From Mycobacterium sp. 155 (GTDB lineage: Bacteria > Actinomycetota > Actinomycetes > Mycobacteriales > Mycobacteriaceae): 64,000 nucleotides of DNA. This document shows positions 49,589-57,925 of the stretch, one piece after another. A program made the position numbers and the translations under genes. Location: positions 1,550,001 to 1,614,000 of the forward strand of contig NZ_KB892705.1 in NCBI RefSeq assembly GCF_000373905.1. The letters run 5' to 3'. Below the pieces are notes generated by a model. It saw nothing but the letters and a program-made list of their open reading frames with translations, was not told where the DNA came from and did not search any database. The first letter of the stretch is position 1. Every line of letters starts with the position of its first letter.

Positions 49589-51007
49589 CTAGACGTCTTC
49601 CTCGCCGATGCGGTGCACGTGGATCAGGTTTGTGGAGCCTACTGTGCCAGGAGGGGCACCTGCGACGATGACCACCAGTTCGCCGCGTTTGTACCGACCG
49701 AGTTCCAGCAACGATTTGTCGACCTGCCGGATCATGTCGTCGGTGCTGGTCATCTGCGGGACGATGAACGTCTCGGTCCCCCAGGTCAGCGCCAGCTGGC
49801 TACGAACCTCGGGCAGCGCGGTGAACGCCAGGACCGGCAGCGGCGTATGCAGCCGCGCCAGTCGGCGGACCGTGTCCCCGGACTCGGTGAACGCGACCAG
49901 CGCCTTGGCGTCCAGCCGCTCACCGATGTCGCGCGCCGCGTACGAGATGACGCCGCGCTTGGTGCGCGGGACGTGCGTCAGCGGTGGCACGACGACAGAA
50001 TTCTCCTCGACCGCATGGATGATGCGGGCCATTGTCCGCACCGTTTCCAGCGGGTACTTGCCCACCGAGGTCTCACCGGAGAGCATCACCGCGTCCGCAC
50101 CGTCGAGCACCGCGTTGGCCACGTCGGATGCCTCGGCCCGAGTGGGCCGCGAACTGTCGATCATCGACTCCAGCATCTGGGTCGCGACGATGACGGGTTT
50201 GGCGTTCTCCCTTGCCATCTGGATCGCGCGCTTCTGCACGAGAGGCACTTCCTCCAGCGGCAGTTCCACACCCAGATCACCGCGGGCCACCATGATCGCG
50301 TCGAATGCCAGCACGATCGCCTCGAGGTTCTCGACGGCCTCGGGCTTTTCCAGCTTGGCGATCACCGGAACCCGACGGCCGGCGCGGTCCATCACCTCGT
50401 GCACCAGCTCGACATCGGCTGGCGAGCGCACAAACGACAGGGCGACCAGGTCGACGCCGAGCTGCAGCGCGAACTCCAAGTCTTTGATGTCTTTTTCCGA
50501 CAGTGCCGGGGCCGAGACATTCATGCCGGGCAGCGACATACCTTTGTTGTTGCTGACCCGGCCACCCTCGGTGACCTTGCAGATGACGTCGTTGCCTTCG
50601 ATGCTCTCGACGGTCAGACCGACGTTGCCGTCGTCGACAAGTACCCGATCCCCCGGTGCCGCGTCCTCGGCCAGTCGCTTGTAGGTAGTCGACACCCGGT
50701 CATGGGTTCCGGCGCAGTCGTCGACGGTGATCCGCACAGTCTCGCCGGTCGCCCAGACCGTCGGCCCATCGGCGAAGCGACCGAGGCGGATCTTCGGTCC
50801 TTGCAAGTCGGCGAGGATACCGACGGCCTGACCGGTGATGTCGGAGGCTGCCCGTACCCGACGGTAGGCGGCCTCGTGATCCGAATAGTCGCCGTGGCTG
50901 AAGTTCAGCCGAGCGACATCCATGCCAGCTTCCACCAGCAATCTGACGACGTCTTCAGTGCCGGTAGCCGGACCAAGGGTACAAACGATCTTCGCGCGTC
51001 TGTTCAC
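49589..51007 (-). CDS. pyk: Pyruvate kinase
   Basis: This encodes 472 aa from GTG 51007. TIM-barrel: RRAKIVCTLGPATG, LNFSHGDYSDHEAAYR, LADLQGPKIRLG with a small B domain (about 70-170). Catalytic and metal-binding segment IAKLEKPEAVENLEAIVLAFDAIMVARGDLGVELPLEEVPLVQK follows. Substrate loop: ATQMLESMIDSSRPTRAEASDVANAVLDGADAVMLSGETSVGKYP. C-terminal allosteric domain about 340-472. It converts phosphoenolpyruvate and ADP to pyruvate and ATP. It lies 27 bp downstream of gltD on the same strand, linking glycolytic output to the nitrogen-assimilation genes in position, though not necessarily in regulation. Confidence 0.97.
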   Translation of the reverse strand: MNRRAKIVCTLGPATGTEDVVRLLVEAGMDVARLNFSHGDYSDHEAAYRRVRAASDITGQAVGILADLQGPKIRLGRFADGPTVWATGETVRITVDDCAGTHDRVSTTYKRLAEDAAPGDRVLVDDGNVGLTVESIEGNDVICKVTEGGRVSNNKGMSLPGMNVSAPALSEKDIKDLEFALQLGVDLVALSFVRSPADVELVHEVMDRAGRRVPVIAKLEKPEAVENLEAIVLAFDAIMVARGDLGVELPLEEVPLVQKRAIQMARENAKPVIVATQMLESMIDSSRPTRAEASDVANAVLDGADAVMLSGETSVGKYPLETVRTMARIIHAVEENSVVVPPLTHVPRTKRGVISYAARDIGERLDAKALVAFTESGDTVRRLARLHTPLPVLAFTALPEVRSQLALTWGTETFIVPQMTSTDDMIRQVDKSLLELGRYKRGELVVIVAGAPPGTVGSTNLIHVHRIGEEDV

Positions 51008-51034: not shown

Positions 51035-52537
51035 TCAGACGACGGCCAGCGGCAGAGCACCGGGACGCACCGGCGCGGGCAGGTCAGAGTCACCCATCAG
51101 ATAGGCGTCCACCGCATGCGCTGCGCTGCGGCCTTCGGCGATGGCCCACACCACCAACGAGGCCCCGCGGTGTGCGTCACCACAGACGAATACCCCCGGT
51201 GCATCGGTCTGCCAGTCCGAACCGCACGACAACGCGCCGCGCCGGTTGAGCCGCAGGCCGACATCGTCGAGCAATGCCATGTGCTCGACACCCTCGAATC
51301 CGATCGCCAACAAGGCCAGGTCGCACGGAATCTCCAGTGATTCGCCGACCGGGGTGATCTGTCGTCGGCCTTCGGCGTCGCGGGTGACCCGCACCTCGGC
51401 GATCTCCAGCGCCCGCAGGTGCCCTTCCTCGTCGCCGACGAACCGCTGGACTGCCACCTCGAAGTGACGGGCTCCGCCCTCCGCGTGCGCCGGTGACGTT
51501 CGTAACACCAGCGGCCACGTCGGCCACGGGGAGAGAGAAATGTCACGCATTTCGGGCGGTTCGGGGTTGTAGTCCAACTGGGTCACCGACTTTGCCCCTT
51601 GCCGGTGCGCGGTGCCCAGACAGTCGGCACCGGTGTCGCCGCCACCGATGATGACCACATGCCGCCCGGCGGCCGATATCGGTGACGGTCCGTCGCCTTC
51701 ACATTCCCGGTTGGCCGGCACCAAGTGGTCCATCGCCAGATGCACACCCGCAAGTCCGCGTCCGGGCACGTCGTAGTCGCGGGCCCGCAGGGCGCCGACG
51801 GCCAGCACGACCGCCTGGTACCGAGCCCGCAGCTGCTCGACGGTCAGGTCGACACCGACCTCGCACTCGGTGACGAACCGGGTTCCCTCGGCCCGCATCT
51901 GAGCCAGCCGCTGATTGAGGGTCGCCTTCTCCAGCTTGTACTCGGGGATGCCGTAGCGCAGCAGCCCACCGATCCGGTCGTCGCGTTCGTAGACAGTGAC
52001 ATCGTGGCCGGCCCGGGTGAGTTGTTGTGCCGCAGCCAATCCCGCGGGGCCGGAGCCCACCACCGCGACACTCTTGCCGGTAGTGACGGCGGCGGGCTGC
52101 GGCTGGACCGTGCCATCCATCCAGGCTTCGTCGGCGATGGTCTGCTCGATGCGTTTGATCGTGACGCTGCCGCCGGTCTGCTCCTCGGCGATCGACAAGA
52201 CGCATGCTGCCTCACAAGGCGCCGGGCACAACCGCCCGGTGAATTCCGGGAAGTTGTTGGTGGCATGCAGCCGGTTGCTGGCCGCGTCCCAGCGGCCGCG
52301 CCGCACGAGGTCATTCCACTCCGGTATGAGGTTGCCGAGTGGGCACCCCGCAGTTCCTGAGTGGCAGAACGGGATACCGCAGTCCATGCAGCGTCGGGCC
52401 TGTTGGGACACCTCACCGGCGCGCTCGTGCGGATCCTGCTGTTCGTATACCTCACACCAGTCGCCGACGCGTTCGTCGACGGGGCGTTTGACGGCCTCGA
52501 CCTTGGCTACTCGCAGGAACCCAGTTGGATCAGCCAC
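51035..52537 (-). CDS. gltD: Glutamate synthase (NADPH) small subunit
   Basis: This encodes 500 aa from GTG 52537 ([20 protein letters not shown]), overlapping gltB by 8 bp; a longer frame to 52567 lies inside gltB. Cys-rich N-terminal domain for two 4Fe-4S clusters: [29 protein letters not shown] and [18 protein letters not shown]-binding [28 protein letters not shown] and NADPH-binding [23 protein letters not shown] with final [21 protein letters not shown]. It supplies electrons to GltB for making glutamate from 2-oxoglutarate and glutamine. It is intact, in contrast to gltB. Confidence 0.96.
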
Positions 52538-55500
52538 GGCTGGCCTCCATGATCGCGTTGTCGACATCGCGGCCCTCGGCCTTGGCCATCCGGGTGGCCT
52601 GTAGCACGCGCTGATAGTCGGTGGGCATGATCTTGGTGAATTGGGTACTGCGCCTTGGCCAATCGGACAACACCGACTTGGCCACCGTGCTGTCGGTGTG
52701 TTCGGCGTGCCGGGCCACGACTGCGTGCAGCCAGGCGAGGTCCTCGGGTTCCAGGTTCTGCAGTTGCACCATCTCGGTGTTGACTTTCGCAGGATTCAGG
52801 CCGAGCACGTAGGTGATACCCCCGGACATGCCCGCTGCCATGTTGCGCCCGGTGGGGCCCAGCACCACTACGCGGCCTCCGGTCATGTATTCACAGGCGT
52901 GGTCGCCGACCCCTTCGACAACAGCCAGCGCGCCGGAGTTACGTGCGCAGAATCGCTCCCCGACCCGGCCGCGCAAGAAGACCTCACCGGAGGTGGCCCC
53001 GTAAAGCACGGTGTTGCCGGCGATCACGTTGTCCTCTGGTAGGAACAGCACGTCGTCGGGCGGCCGGACGATGACTCGGCCGCCGGAAAGTCCCTTGCCC
53101 ACATAGTCGTTGGCGTCGCCGATGAGGTCGAGAGTGACGCCGCGCGGCAGGAAGGCGCCGACCGACTGCCCGGCGGATCCGGTCAGGGTGACATGGATGG
53201 TGTCGTCGGGTAACCCGGTGGCACCGTAACGGCGAGTCACTTCAGAACCCAGCAGGGTGCCGACAGTACGGTTGACGTTGCGGACCGGCAGTTCCAACCG
53301 GACTGGGTGGGCGTCTTCCAGAGCGCCCTCGGCAAGCTGGATCAGCGTGCGGTCCAGAGCCTGCTCCAGTCCGTGTTCTTGACCGCGCAAGCGGCGGCGC
53401 TGGGTCAGCTTGGCGCCGTGCGCGTCGGTGGGCAGCGCAAAGATCGGGCTCAGGTCCAGACCCCGGCTCTTCCAGTGCGCGACGCCCGGTACGGTGTCGA
53501 GCACCTCGGCGTGGCCGATCGCCTCGTCGATGCTGCGGAAGCCCAGTTCGGCCAAGTAACGGCGGATGTCTTCGGCGATGAAAGTGAAGAAGTTCTCCAC
53601 GAACTCGGGCTTGCCGTTGAAGCGGGCTCGCAGTTCAGGATTCTGGGTCGCCACGCCGACCGGGCAGGTATCCAGGTGGCATACCCGCATCATGATGCAG
53701 CCCGCCACCACCAGCGGCGCGGTTGCGAAGCCGAACTCCTCGGCGCCGAGCAACGCCGCCACGATGACATCGCGTGCGGTGCGAAGGCCGCCGTCACACT
53801 GCACGGTAATGCGATCACGTAAACCATTGAGCACCAACGTCTGCTGTGCATCGGCCAGACCGATCTCCCACGGTGCCCCGGCATGCTTGAGCGAGGTGAG
53901 CGGCGCCGCGCCGGTACCGCCGTCATAGCCGGAGATCAGCACCACATCGGCGTGCGCCTTGGAGACGCCGGCCGCGACGGTACCGACCCCCACACTGCTG
54001 ACCAGCTTGACGTGGATGCGCGCATCGGCGTTGGCATTCTTCAGGTCATGGATGAGCTGCGCGAGGTCCTCGATGGAGTAGATGTCGTGGTGCGGTGGCG
54101 GTGAGATCAGTCCGACACCAGGCGTGGAGTGCCTGGTCTTGGCGATCTCCGGGTACACCTTATATCCCGGAAGCTGGCCGCCCTCACCAGGTTTGGCGCC
54201 CTGAGCCATCTTGATCTGGATGTCCGTGGCATTGACCAGGTAGACGCTCGTGACGCCGAACCGGCCCGACGCGACCTGCTTGACCGCGCTGCGCCGGAGC
54301 GGATCGTAGAGCCGCTCGACATCTTCACCGCCCTCACCGCTGTTGGACCGGCCGCCGAGCTTGTTCATGGCGATGGCCATGGTCTCGTGCGCCTCGGCGG
54401 AGATCGAGCCGTAGCTCATCGCGCCGGTGTTGAATCTCGTGATGATCGATTCGACCGACTCGACTTCATCCAGAGGCACGCGCGCACGCAGCCCCTGCTT
54501 GAACTCGAAGAGGCCACGCAGCGTCCCACCGTCGCGCGACAGCCGGTCGACCTCCTCGGAATAGCGGGCAAATATGTCGCGCCGGCCGGTCCGGGTCGAA
54601 TGCTGCAGCAAAAAAACCACTTCCGGAGTGAACAGATGCAGTTCGCCTTCCCGCCGGAACGCGTACTCGCCGCCGACCTCCAACCGGCGGTGCACACGTT
54701 CGGTCGGGTTCTCCGGGTAGGCGCAGCGATGACGCAGCTTGACTTCCTCGGCGAGCACATCCAGGCCGACACCTCCGAGCTGGCTGGTGGTGCCGGTGAA
54801 ATACTCCTCCACCAGCTGGTGGTCGAGTCCGATCGCCTCGAAAACCTGTGCCGCGGTGTAGGAGCCAACGGTGGAAATACCCATCTTGCTCATCACCTTC
54901 ACCACGCCCTTGCCAAGGGCCCTGACGTAGTTGTGCACCGCGGCCGCAGGCTCGATACCGGTCAGCTCACCTTCGCGGATCAGGTCCTCGATCGACTCGA
55001 ACGCCAGATAGGGGTTGACCGCGGCCGCGCCGAACCCGATGAGCATCGCGATGTGGTGGACTTCGCGGGCGTCACCACTTTCCACCACCAGGGCCACCTT
55101 CGTGCGGTCCTTGGTACGGACCAGATGGTGATGTACCGCCGACACCGCGAGCAACGATGGGATCGGCGCGCGGGTGTGGTCGGAGTCACGGTCGGAAATC
55201 ACCAGGGTCCGAGCGCCGTTGGCGATCGCCTCGCTTGCCCGCAGGCGTAGGTCCTCGATCGCGTCGGCCAGTCCTTCTCCGCCGCGTTCGACCTCGTAGA
55301 GACCGCGCAACACGGTCGAGCGCAGACCGGGATGTTCCCCGTCATCGTTGATGTGGACGATCTTGCTCAGCTCGTCGTTGTCGAGAACCGGCCACCGCAG
55401 CAGGATCTGACGGCAGGACGCGGCACCGGGCTCCAGCAGATTCTCCTCGGGCCCCATCACCCGGGACATGGAGGTGACCACTTCCTCGCGAATAGCATCC

Positions 55501-56997
55501 AGCGGCGGGTTGGTCACCTGCGCGAACAGTTCGACGAAGTAGTCATACAGCAGCCGGGACCGCGAGGAGAGCACGGCTGTCGGCGTATCGCTACCCATCG
55601 ACCCGAGCGGCTCCCCGCCCGACGCCGCCATCGGAGTGAGCAGGATGCGCAGCTCTTCCTCGGTGTACCCGAAGGCGATCTGCCGCCGGACCACCGATTC
55701 GTGGTTCGGCTGCAGGCGAGTGCGATCAGGCAGGGCGGCAAGGTCCAGCAATCCTGCGTGCAGCCACTCACCGTACGGTTCGGCCTGGGCCAACTGGTCC
55801 TTGATCTCGTCGTCGGAGACGATGCGGCCCGCGATGGTGTCGACGAGGAACATCTTGCCGGGCCGCAACCGGCCCTTGGCGACGATCTCCCCCGACGGCA
55901 CATCCAGCACGCCGCTTTCGCTGGCCAGGATGACGCGGTCGTCAACGGTGCGCCACCACCGGCCCGGTCGTAAGCCGTTGCGGTCCAACACCGCTCCCAC
56001 CAACGACCCGTCGGTAAACGTCACGCAGGCCGGACCGTCCCACAGTTCCATGAGTGAGGAGTGGAACTGCCAGAACGGCCGTTCCGCGGGATCCATCGTG
56101 ATGGCGTTCTCCCACGCCTCGGGAATCATCATCAGCACCGCATGCGGCAGGCTGCGGCCGCCGAGGTGGAGCAGTTCGAGTACCTCGTCGAACGAAGCGG
56201 AATCGGAGGCGTCGGCCGTGCCGATCGGTGACAACCGGCTCAGGTCACCGGAGATGTACGCAGTGGCGAGCTTCGCTTCGCGGGCGTACATGCGGTTGCG
56301 GTTACCGCGAACCGTATTGATCTCGCCGTTGTGCGCGACGAACCGGAACGGGTGAGCCAGCGGCCATGATGGGAAGGTATTGGTGGAGAACCGGCTGTGC
56401 ACGATCGCGATGGCACTCCGACAGTATTCGTCGCGCAGATCCGGAAAGTATTGCGGCAGCTGCACTGTCGTCAGCATGCCCTTGTAGACCATCGTGCGGC
56501 TGGACAGGGACGAAAAGTAGACGTCCGAGCGCTCGGCACGCTTTTGCAGCGGGTAGACGCGCCGGTCCAGGTGGATTCCGCCGGGCCGGGCACCCTCAAC
56601 TTCGGGCGCGGCGACGAACAACTGCGCCATGTACGGCATACAGCTCAGCGCCGTTATGCCGATACCGGCACCTTCGGGGTCGACCGGCACCGCGCGCCAG
56701 CCCAGAACTTCCAGGCCTTCCTCCGCGGCGATGGTTTCGACCCGCTCGCGCGCTACCTGTCGGGCCACGGGATCCTGCGGCAGAAAACAAATTCCGGCGG
56801 CGAACGTGCTGGTGCCGTCGGCGGCGGGCGCAGGCAGAGCGAAATCCACCCCGTGGCTCAACAGTTCGACCGGCAACTGCAGCAGGATGCCTGCGCCGTC
56901 GCCCGTGAACATCGGCGATCATCGCCACACCACAGGAATCGGCTTCGTTGGCAGGGTCGTACAAACCCTGAGCGTTCGGCAATACCGAGAAGAGCAC
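52530..56997 (-). pseudogene. gltB: Glutamate synthase large subunit, N-terminal frameshift/deletion
   Basis: From GTG 56997 (GGAG upstream) the frame reads LFSVLPNAQGLYDPANEADS, then [13 protein letters not shown], the GltB N-terminus with the glutaminase nucleophile Cys (TGT 56934-56932). It then runs into unrelated sequence and stops at 56596. The rest of GltB is open in another frame from [16 protein letters not shown] (ATG 56912) to TGA 52530, 1,460 aa. It includes the FMN domain, the 3Fe-4S cysteines [15 protein letters not shown] and the C-terminal beta-helix. About 30 residues normally between HGRR and NTGDGAG are missing. The junction (56896-56907) is the word CACGGGCGACGG, which would encode both HGRR and, in another phase, TGDG. 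As given, no intact GltB can be made. Confidence 0.85.
56896..56907 (-). other. Deletion scar in gltB at a 12-bp word
   Basis: The single remaining copy of CACGGGCGACGG. Read in the upstream frame it gives H-G-R-R; read in the downstream frame it is part of T-G-D-G. Both peptides are conserved in intact GltB, roughly 30 residues apart. This suggests that two copies recombined or were collapsed, removing the intervening DNA and shifting the frame. Confidence 0.65.
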
Positions 56998-57078
56998 GGG
57001 GATTGCATCTCCACAGTCCGGAACATCCTGGCTCCGGGACTGCACCGGCCCGAGCATGGGTGTATCAGTGCAGGTCAG

Positions 57079-57492
57079 CTATCCGCCGACGAATGTCGGG
57101 ACCAACGGGAAGCCCGGGAGGTTTCGGACCACGGTCCAAATGATGGCAGTGATCAGGATCGTGACGATGGCAGGCACCGGAAAGAGTGGCTTGCCCAGGC
57201 GCCACCGCACCAGAATCCAGGCGGCCAGTAGCGGAAGCCCCACGAGAGCGAACGCATTGTCGACGACGGCTGCACCCAGGTCTGCGTGCAGCACATCGTG
57301 CGTCATCCGCAGACCGCCGCATGCCGGGCAGTTCCAGCCGGTGATCAGCTTGAACGGGCATGTCGGGAACAGGAATCCGGGGCGATGCGGATCGGCCACA
57401 CCGGTATAGGTGACAGCCCCGGCCAGCACGACGCCGGCGCCGAACGCACCGTAGCGCCTCGCCCTGACGCTGAGTTCCGAGCTAGGTCCCAT
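57079..57492 (-). CDS. DUF2752 membrane protein
   Basis: This encodes 137 aa from ATG 57492 (MGPSSELSVRARRYGAFG), overlapping the TM2 gene by 11 bp. Three membrane helices are seen, with the DUF2752 core PHRPGFLFPTCPFKLITGWNCPACGGLRMTHDVLHADLGAAVVDNAF. The Cys in FPTCPFK and the CPACG motif are the family hallmark and may bind metal or undergo redox change. Function is unknown. The ortholog keeps this place, next to a TM2 protein downstream of lgt, in M. tuberculosis (Rv1616, from memory). It ends 81 bp before the gltB GTG. Confidence 0.88.
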   Translation of the reverse strand: MGPSSELSVRARRYGAFGAGVVLAGAVTYTGVADPHRPGFLFPTCPFKLITGWNCPACGGLRMTHDVLHADLGAAVVDNAFALVGLPLLAAWILVRWRLGKPLFPVPAIVTILITAIIWTVVRNLPGFPLVPTFVGG

Positions 57493-57925
57493 CGCGCAGC
57501 GGACGTCCGTTCGGGTCGCGGACCTTGTCGGTGAAGATGAGGATCGCATCGATGATGCCCCAGATCCAGGCGCCGATTCCGCACGTCAGGATGCCGACGA
57601 CGAGTTGGATCACGCCCATGGTGGTGTCGCCGAGATAGATGCGGCCAATCCCCACGAGGCCGAACAAACCCAACAACTGCAGCAGCCCGGCGGTGGTCTT
57701 CGATTTGTCCGAGAACGGCTCCCCGGTCAGCGGATGACGTCCGTATGGAGCGGCCGGATCGACATACATCGGCGGCGGATAATAACCCTGGGGCTGCTGT
57801 CCGTAGCCAGGCGGCGGGTACCCGGGCGGGGGCGCATAGCCGGGCGGCGGCGGGTATCCGGCAGGCGGCGGGAACGGCGGTACCGAGCCTTCAGCACTGG
57901 CGCCGGGATCCGGGCGATCGGTCAT
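57482..57925 (-). CDS. TM2-domain protein with Pro/Tyr/Gly-rich N-terminus
   Basis: This encodes 147 aa from ATG 57925 (MTDRPDPGASAEG). The first 65 residues are rich in PPPGY repeats. The TM2 domain (about 72-138) follows: SDKSKTTAGLLQLLGLFGLVGIGRIYLGDTTMGVIQLVVGILTCGIGAWIWGIIDAILIFTDKVRDPNGRPL, two helices joined by the D-x-F/T-type turn. Its role in bacteria is unknown. It lies between lgt (56 bp upstream) and the DUF2752 gene with which it overlaps, so it is probably part of the same transcript. Confidence 0.9.
   Translation of the reverse strand: MTDRPDPGASAEGSVPPFPPPAGYPPPPGYAPPPGYPPPGYGQQPQGYYPPPMYVDPAAPYGRHPLTGEPFSDKSKTTAGLLQLLGLFGLVGIGRIYLGDTTMGVIQLVVGILTCGIGAWIWGIIDAILIFTDKVRDPNGRPLRDGT

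Follow-up and report, generated by a model that had tools for sequence, protein, structure and literature searches.

The 64,000-nt stretch of DNA analysed here (the window, to which coordinates refer unless a contig is named; its source genome is labelled G000) carries, on the minus strand, a glutamate synthase (GOGAT) operon whose large-subunit gene, here called gltB2, is split between two reading frames. The following features were located in and around this operon:

49589..51007, minus strand: pyk, conserved downstream neighbour, which served as synteny marker and rate control
51035..52567, minus strand: gltD, small subunit; intact open frame overlapping the end of gltB2
52530..56912, minus strand: 3' part of gltB2, 1,460 codons open from the ATG at 56912; GATase_2 (without its first 39 profile positions), Glu_syn_central, Glu_synthase and GXGXG domains
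56896..56907, minus strand: junction word CACGGGCGACGG, site of the frame switch, with 89 nt fewer than in relatives
56934-56932, minus strand: catalytic Cys codon of gltB2, codon 22, the same as in the related protein P0007 by alignment
56596..56997, minus strand: 5' fragment of gltB2, with a GTG start at 56997; in the GltB frame to the junction, then off-frame to the stop at 56596
57011..57052, minus strand: conserved leader hairpin upstream of gltB2
57079..57549, minus strand: upstream neighbour open reading frame, presumably DUF2752-like, also conserved across relatives, the sister species G063 included

Results

Reading frames and domains of gltB2

The frame starting at GTG 56997 encodes the beginning of a GltB protein, including the catalytic Cys, and reaches the HGRR motif, after which it departs from GltB; the 1,460-codon frame that carries the remainder of the protein is out of phase with it, the switch falling at 56907–56896. 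This confirms the frame break proposed in the first-pass annotation of this DNA, as well as its statement that one copy of a 12-bp word marks the switch, since CACGGGCGACGG occurs only once in the window, at 56907-56896 (chance expectation 0.05). The N-terminal Cys is not in one frame with the rest of GltB, and the proposed uncoupling of this residue from the synthase is supported both by the frames and by the 89-nt offset described below.

The class-II glutamine amidotransferase domain (PF00310) is incomplete in gltB2, where positions 40-420 of 420 are matched, as against positions 1-420 in both the relative P0007 and the paralogue P0002. The central, FMN-binding (Glu_synthase) and GXGXG domains are all present in the long product, which scores above the NF008730 cut-off, and gltD adjoins it, intact as had been claimed (the open frame matches TIGR01317). 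To judge from its sequence, the gltB2 product would be inactive.

The frame of the window copy is disrupted where its orthologues are intact. Among 148 genomes of the genus there are at least 65 gltB2 matches at 84% identity or more, and 62 of the 65 listed run from residue 1-2 to 1518 with no stop, the exceptions being the window copy and two others that are partial, come from highly fragmented drafts and are assumed to be contig edges. This count is a lower bound, with three candidates scored per genome: the gltB2 of G056 falls outside it, and the gltB2 remnant of G063 falls below the identity cut. A separate gltB2 survey, in which the G056 copy did appear, scored 197 of 396 genomes, the 199 with too many candidates being left out. 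At the level of titles and opening lines of abstracts, the literature names no loss of gltB2 in mycobacteria, which leaves the absence of such losses unproven.

An 89-nt gap at an imperfect short repeat

In 57 of 57 distinct related loci (those with the Cys and GDGAG words recognised by our script, identical ones removed; L031, for example, is excluded) the distance between these two landmarks is 89 nt greater than in the window, and in the comparison with four intact relatives a single gap is found inside gltB-gltD, also of 89 nt. The loss of about 90 bp, not a multiple of three, that had been predicted is thereby borne out.

The earlier proposal that this loss ran between two copies of the 12-bp word held in part. 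With the relatives taken as proxies for the parent sequence before the deletion, imperfect copies of the word were found at a spacing of 89 nt, but two exact copies occur in none of the 57 loci, in which the two repeat sites have 5-10 of 12 bases in common and the longest exact run, seen in one locus, is 8 bp. In the close relative G213 (taken as Mycolicibacterium brisbanense, the source of protein P0007) the 8-bp exact pair, 89 nt apart, exceeds every other direct repeat of a 300-bp region (spacing 20-200) in length and is the sole 12-mer pair with at least 10/12 matches among 32,399. The other three nearest relatives have a weaker pair (9/12, with a 6-bp run), which is one of 16-20 such pairs among 32,399, and in two of these three there are 7-bp repeats elsewhere in the region.

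Deletions between short direct repeats arise in bacterial genomes by slippage or short-homology repair. The window resembles them in that one copy remains at the junction, the other copy and the spacer being gone, and differs in that the two copies present in its intact relatives are imperfect (at most 10 of 12 bases, 8 bp exact). Since imperfect copies of the word lie at 89-nt spacing in the relatives, a deletion of this type is the likely origin of the loss, in which slippage or short-homology repair between the imperfect repeats would have removed the 89 bases. A literature search on short-repeat deletions in mycobacteria, at the level of titles and the starts of abstracts, returned no relevant match.

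Two other origins were considered and rejected. Programmed frameshifting is ruled out: what the window lacks is 89 nt of conserved amidotransferase coding sequence, lying in the stretch from the Cys to the GDG motif, and a shift of frame cannot restore it. The idea that the junction word was acquired from the paralogue by gene conversion found no support in a by-eye comparison, the paralogue having another word at the matching site. As a separate observation, three of some 15 bases just left of the junction (56896-56915) set the window apart from G063, G109 and G087, one of the three being shared with G213.

Selection on gltB2 and the age of the lesion

The dN/dS ratios between the 1,458 codons of the window gltB2 and ten relatives range from 0.064 to 0.125, and those of nine pairs of intact orthologues from 0.054 to 0.095; the highest value, 0.125, belongs to the pair with G241, a genome absent from those control pairs. 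The picture for gltD is similar. Relative to the nearest intact clade, the omega excess of the window is 0.004 (CI -0.008 to 0.014). The dN excess of the window branch is above zero (0.0077, CI 0.0023-0.0151), with a dS excess alongside, and the unambiguous changes number 39 nonsynonymous and 49 synonymous on the window branch versus 9 and 25 on the stem of the intact clade (p = 0.10). At most, these values hint at a slight relaxation of selection on the window branch. Neither relaxed selection nor further lesions were otherwise found in gltB2, as expected for a young lesion, and the absence of omega relaxation was therefore set aside as an argument against a pseudogene and taken as a sign of youth. 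Since gltB2 evolves like its intact orthologues and contains no other gap, either the event is of recent date or, with lower probability, the assembly is in error; the lesion, if real, is thus likely young.

The main rival explanation is precisely such a sequencing or assembly error, in which the gltB2 of the strain would be intact and the 89 bases would have been dropped in assembly. It keeps this place because the rest of gltB2 is so clean: the remaining gene and gltD evolve like intact genes, with no further gap, and among the best 120 proteins listed the 1,460-aa form is found on a single contig, none falling between 93% and 100%. Nevertheless, the genome consists of two contigs with 100% completeness, the long neighbours gltD, pyk and lgt are open, and the junction coincides with the strongest short repeat seen in a near relative, G213. 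Moreover, an imperfect 12-bp repeat at 89 nt would be shorter than usual reads, so that its collapse seems implausible. We therefore regard an error as unlikely.

Normal dN/dS values fit a very young lesion and a shortened, still working protein alike. The latter would require the 1,460-codon product to be made from ATG 56912 and retained as a GltB without the Cys that uses ammonia or has a structural role, a reading compatible with the open long frame and its divergence under purifying selection, with the ATG at its start and with the intact gltD. We consider it very unlikely: the glutaminase domain is partly gone besides the Cys (GATase_2 is matched from position 40), a single ATG is weak evidence, the operon of the sister species is wrecked, and a young lesion alone accounts for the selection signal.

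The same operon in the sister species

G063 is the nearest species found. Its pyk and lgt products are 98.7% and 99.6% identical to those of the window over the full query length. Of the intact relatives, the four closest have genomes of 7.4–8.1 Mb, as against 4.5–4.6 Mb for G063 and the window genome. The G063 gltB2-gltD2 operon, with its neighbours conserved, is deleted in the same gltB stretch, but its decay is further advanced: there is a 72-nt in-frame gap together with a TAG, about 4.2 kb have gone from between gltB and gltD, and gltD itself is short of about 250 bp.

That gltB2 is broken in both species, with both gaps in the same stretch, could suggest one old, ancestral loss. Had the window copy drifted neutrally ever since it parted from G063, however, 4.8-8.3 stops would be expected in it (from the pyk and lgt dS of 0.10–0.15 to G063, halved) and none is observed, the gap lengths (89 versus 72 nt) and the breakpoints differ, and omega is as for intact genes, all of which makes a common loss highly improbable. 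Given this deficit of stops, the losses are most likely independent, and the window deletion would have followed the split from G063, separately from the lesions seen there.

Other GOGAT genes in the genome

The same genome contains further GOGAT genes, on contig C1:

C1:3923768–3928192: gltB1 (extent of the match), its amidotransferase domain starting at 3923651
C1:3928158–3929645: gltD of the gltB1 pair
C1:3726648-3732197 of G000 (L231:649-6198): third GOGAT-like open frame

The second gltB, gltB1, has the N-terminal Cys in frame within a 1,584-aa open frame, comprises all four GltB domains and is directly followed by its gltD. It resembles gltB2 in this adjoining gltD and in its GltB family domains, and differs from it in protein sequence (63% identical), in its neighbourhood and in the lack of a significant match to the gltB2 leader model (see below). 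Both gltB types are present in 8/8 intact relatives searched. All four GOGAT domains (GATase_2, Glu_syn_central, Glu_synthase and GXGXG) are encoded in the third frame, which is 1,850 codons long, and a gene of the glutamate dehydrogenase type (ELFV family) is also present. The broken gene thus has a redundant intact copy, and because an intact gltB–gltD pair exists elsewhere in the genome the loss of gltB2 is likely tolerated; gltBD1 would now supply the glutamate of the cell.

The window operon can be related to that of M. smegmatis, where MSMEG_3225, 3226 and 3227 are consecutive tags in the order gltB-gltD-pyk (a table of PMC4881515). From this gene order and the 88% protein identity to M. 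smegmatis GltB, gltB2-gltD2 appears to be the orthologue of MSMEG_3225/3226; the domains after the junction are also the same, whereas in the window copy the Cys segment is off-frame and 89 nt are missing. According to PMC4881515, MSMEG_3225/3226 is the most expressed GOGAT of M. smegmatis, and PMC6039565 reports an increase of about 30-fold in biofilm, dependent on GlnR.

One gltB being broken, and its syntenic M. smegmatis counterpart being the most expressed, the first-pass annotation had supposed that the strain lacks normal GOGAT and depends on another route to glutamate. This is contradicted by the intact gltB1-gltD pair and the third GOGAT-like frame. We take the gltBD operon of M. bovis BCG to be the orthologue of the surviving pair (gltBD1). 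Without gltBD, BCG is a glutamate auxotroph that fails to grow on ammonium alone and is not helped by extra ammonium (PMC3868603), a phenotype which shows that GOGAT is needed in at least one mycobacterium, and which further argues against a strain devoid of it. We find such a strain hardly credible.

A conserved hairpin in the gltB2 leader

Upstream of gltB2 lies a conserved leader element that begins with CGGGCCG and contains a GCAGTC/GACTGC hairpin, which immediately precedes the ribosome-binding site. After one of its 58 rows had been dropped, the leader alignment comprised 41 distinct sequences. Pairing holds in 93% of the cells of these 41 sequences, versus 18–40% when the pairing is slid, and two-sided changes are found in 11 cells, as compared with a shuffled mean of 3.1 (0 of 500 shuffles as high), values that are tilted towards the hairpin in that the structure was chosen on the same alignment used for testing it. 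The two-sided changes fall in three pairs, and 48 of the 500 shuffles reach that number. Of the inner pairs, two are broken in 13/41 and 8/41 sequences, respectively, and the RNAalifold prediction omits one of these two weak pairs.

A model of this leader has one significant site in the window genome, before gltB2 (E = 1.1e-7; the next at 1.2). Among 60 genomes it finds one site each in 27, all of them, by position, no more than about 300 bases ahead of gltB2, and none elsewhere at E ≤ 0.01; 27 of the 29 gltB2 carriers have the hairpin, and the two without it are partial gltB2 copies. The leader has no Rfam match (one chance-level hit, E = 4.4). On these comparative grounds the hairpin is a candidate for a cis-regulatory RNA element that acts on the main GOGAT of mycobacteria.

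The cyanobacterial glnA motif was rejected as its identity, given that this motif is in Rfam and the leader has no match there. It is tied to nitrogen genes including glutamate synthase, gltB not being named in the passages of PMC2864571 that were searched. Among the papers listed, no other published RNA motif was a candidate by title. Two further observations concern this region: the Shine-Dalgarno-like GGAGG of five aligned relatives reads GGAGA in the window (57001-57014), and a second class of gltB2 leaders (L014, L017, L025, L026 and others) is markedly longer, with an extra GC-rich block before the start codon.

Discussion

We conclude, with good though not complete confidence, that gltB2, the gltB copy in the order lgt-gltB-gltD-pyk, has probably been recently inactivated in this strain, is redundant, and lost 89 bases by deletion between short imperfect direct repeats. 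The case is most likely a real, recent and ordinary loss of a redundant GOGAT paralogue.

Beyond this loss, a 12-bp insertion creates an imperfect tandem repeat about 100 bases upstream of gltB1 (G000 L176; G063 L186). The insertion is present in both species with a broken gltB2 and in 0/8 intact relatives examined, and as it probably arose once, on a single stem, it is no more than suggestive. It is conceivable, though we hold it as tentative, that one primary enzyme of ammonium assimilation is being exchanged for another, in which case the stem insertion would have let gltBD1 replace gltBD2, the GlnR-controlled, leader-bearing GOGAT that fast-growing mycobacteria express strongly, and the two small-genome species would be discarding gltBD2 by separate deletions.

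The locus also calls for caution in annotation, as the 1,460-aa product passes NF008730 and would be named a glutamate synthase despite its missing glutaminase start. As for the organism, the window genome is seemingly at the onset of losing what in M. smegmatis is the main GOGAT, with G063 far further along, and the two together make the order of events testable, that is, whether the backup took over first or the main copy broke first.
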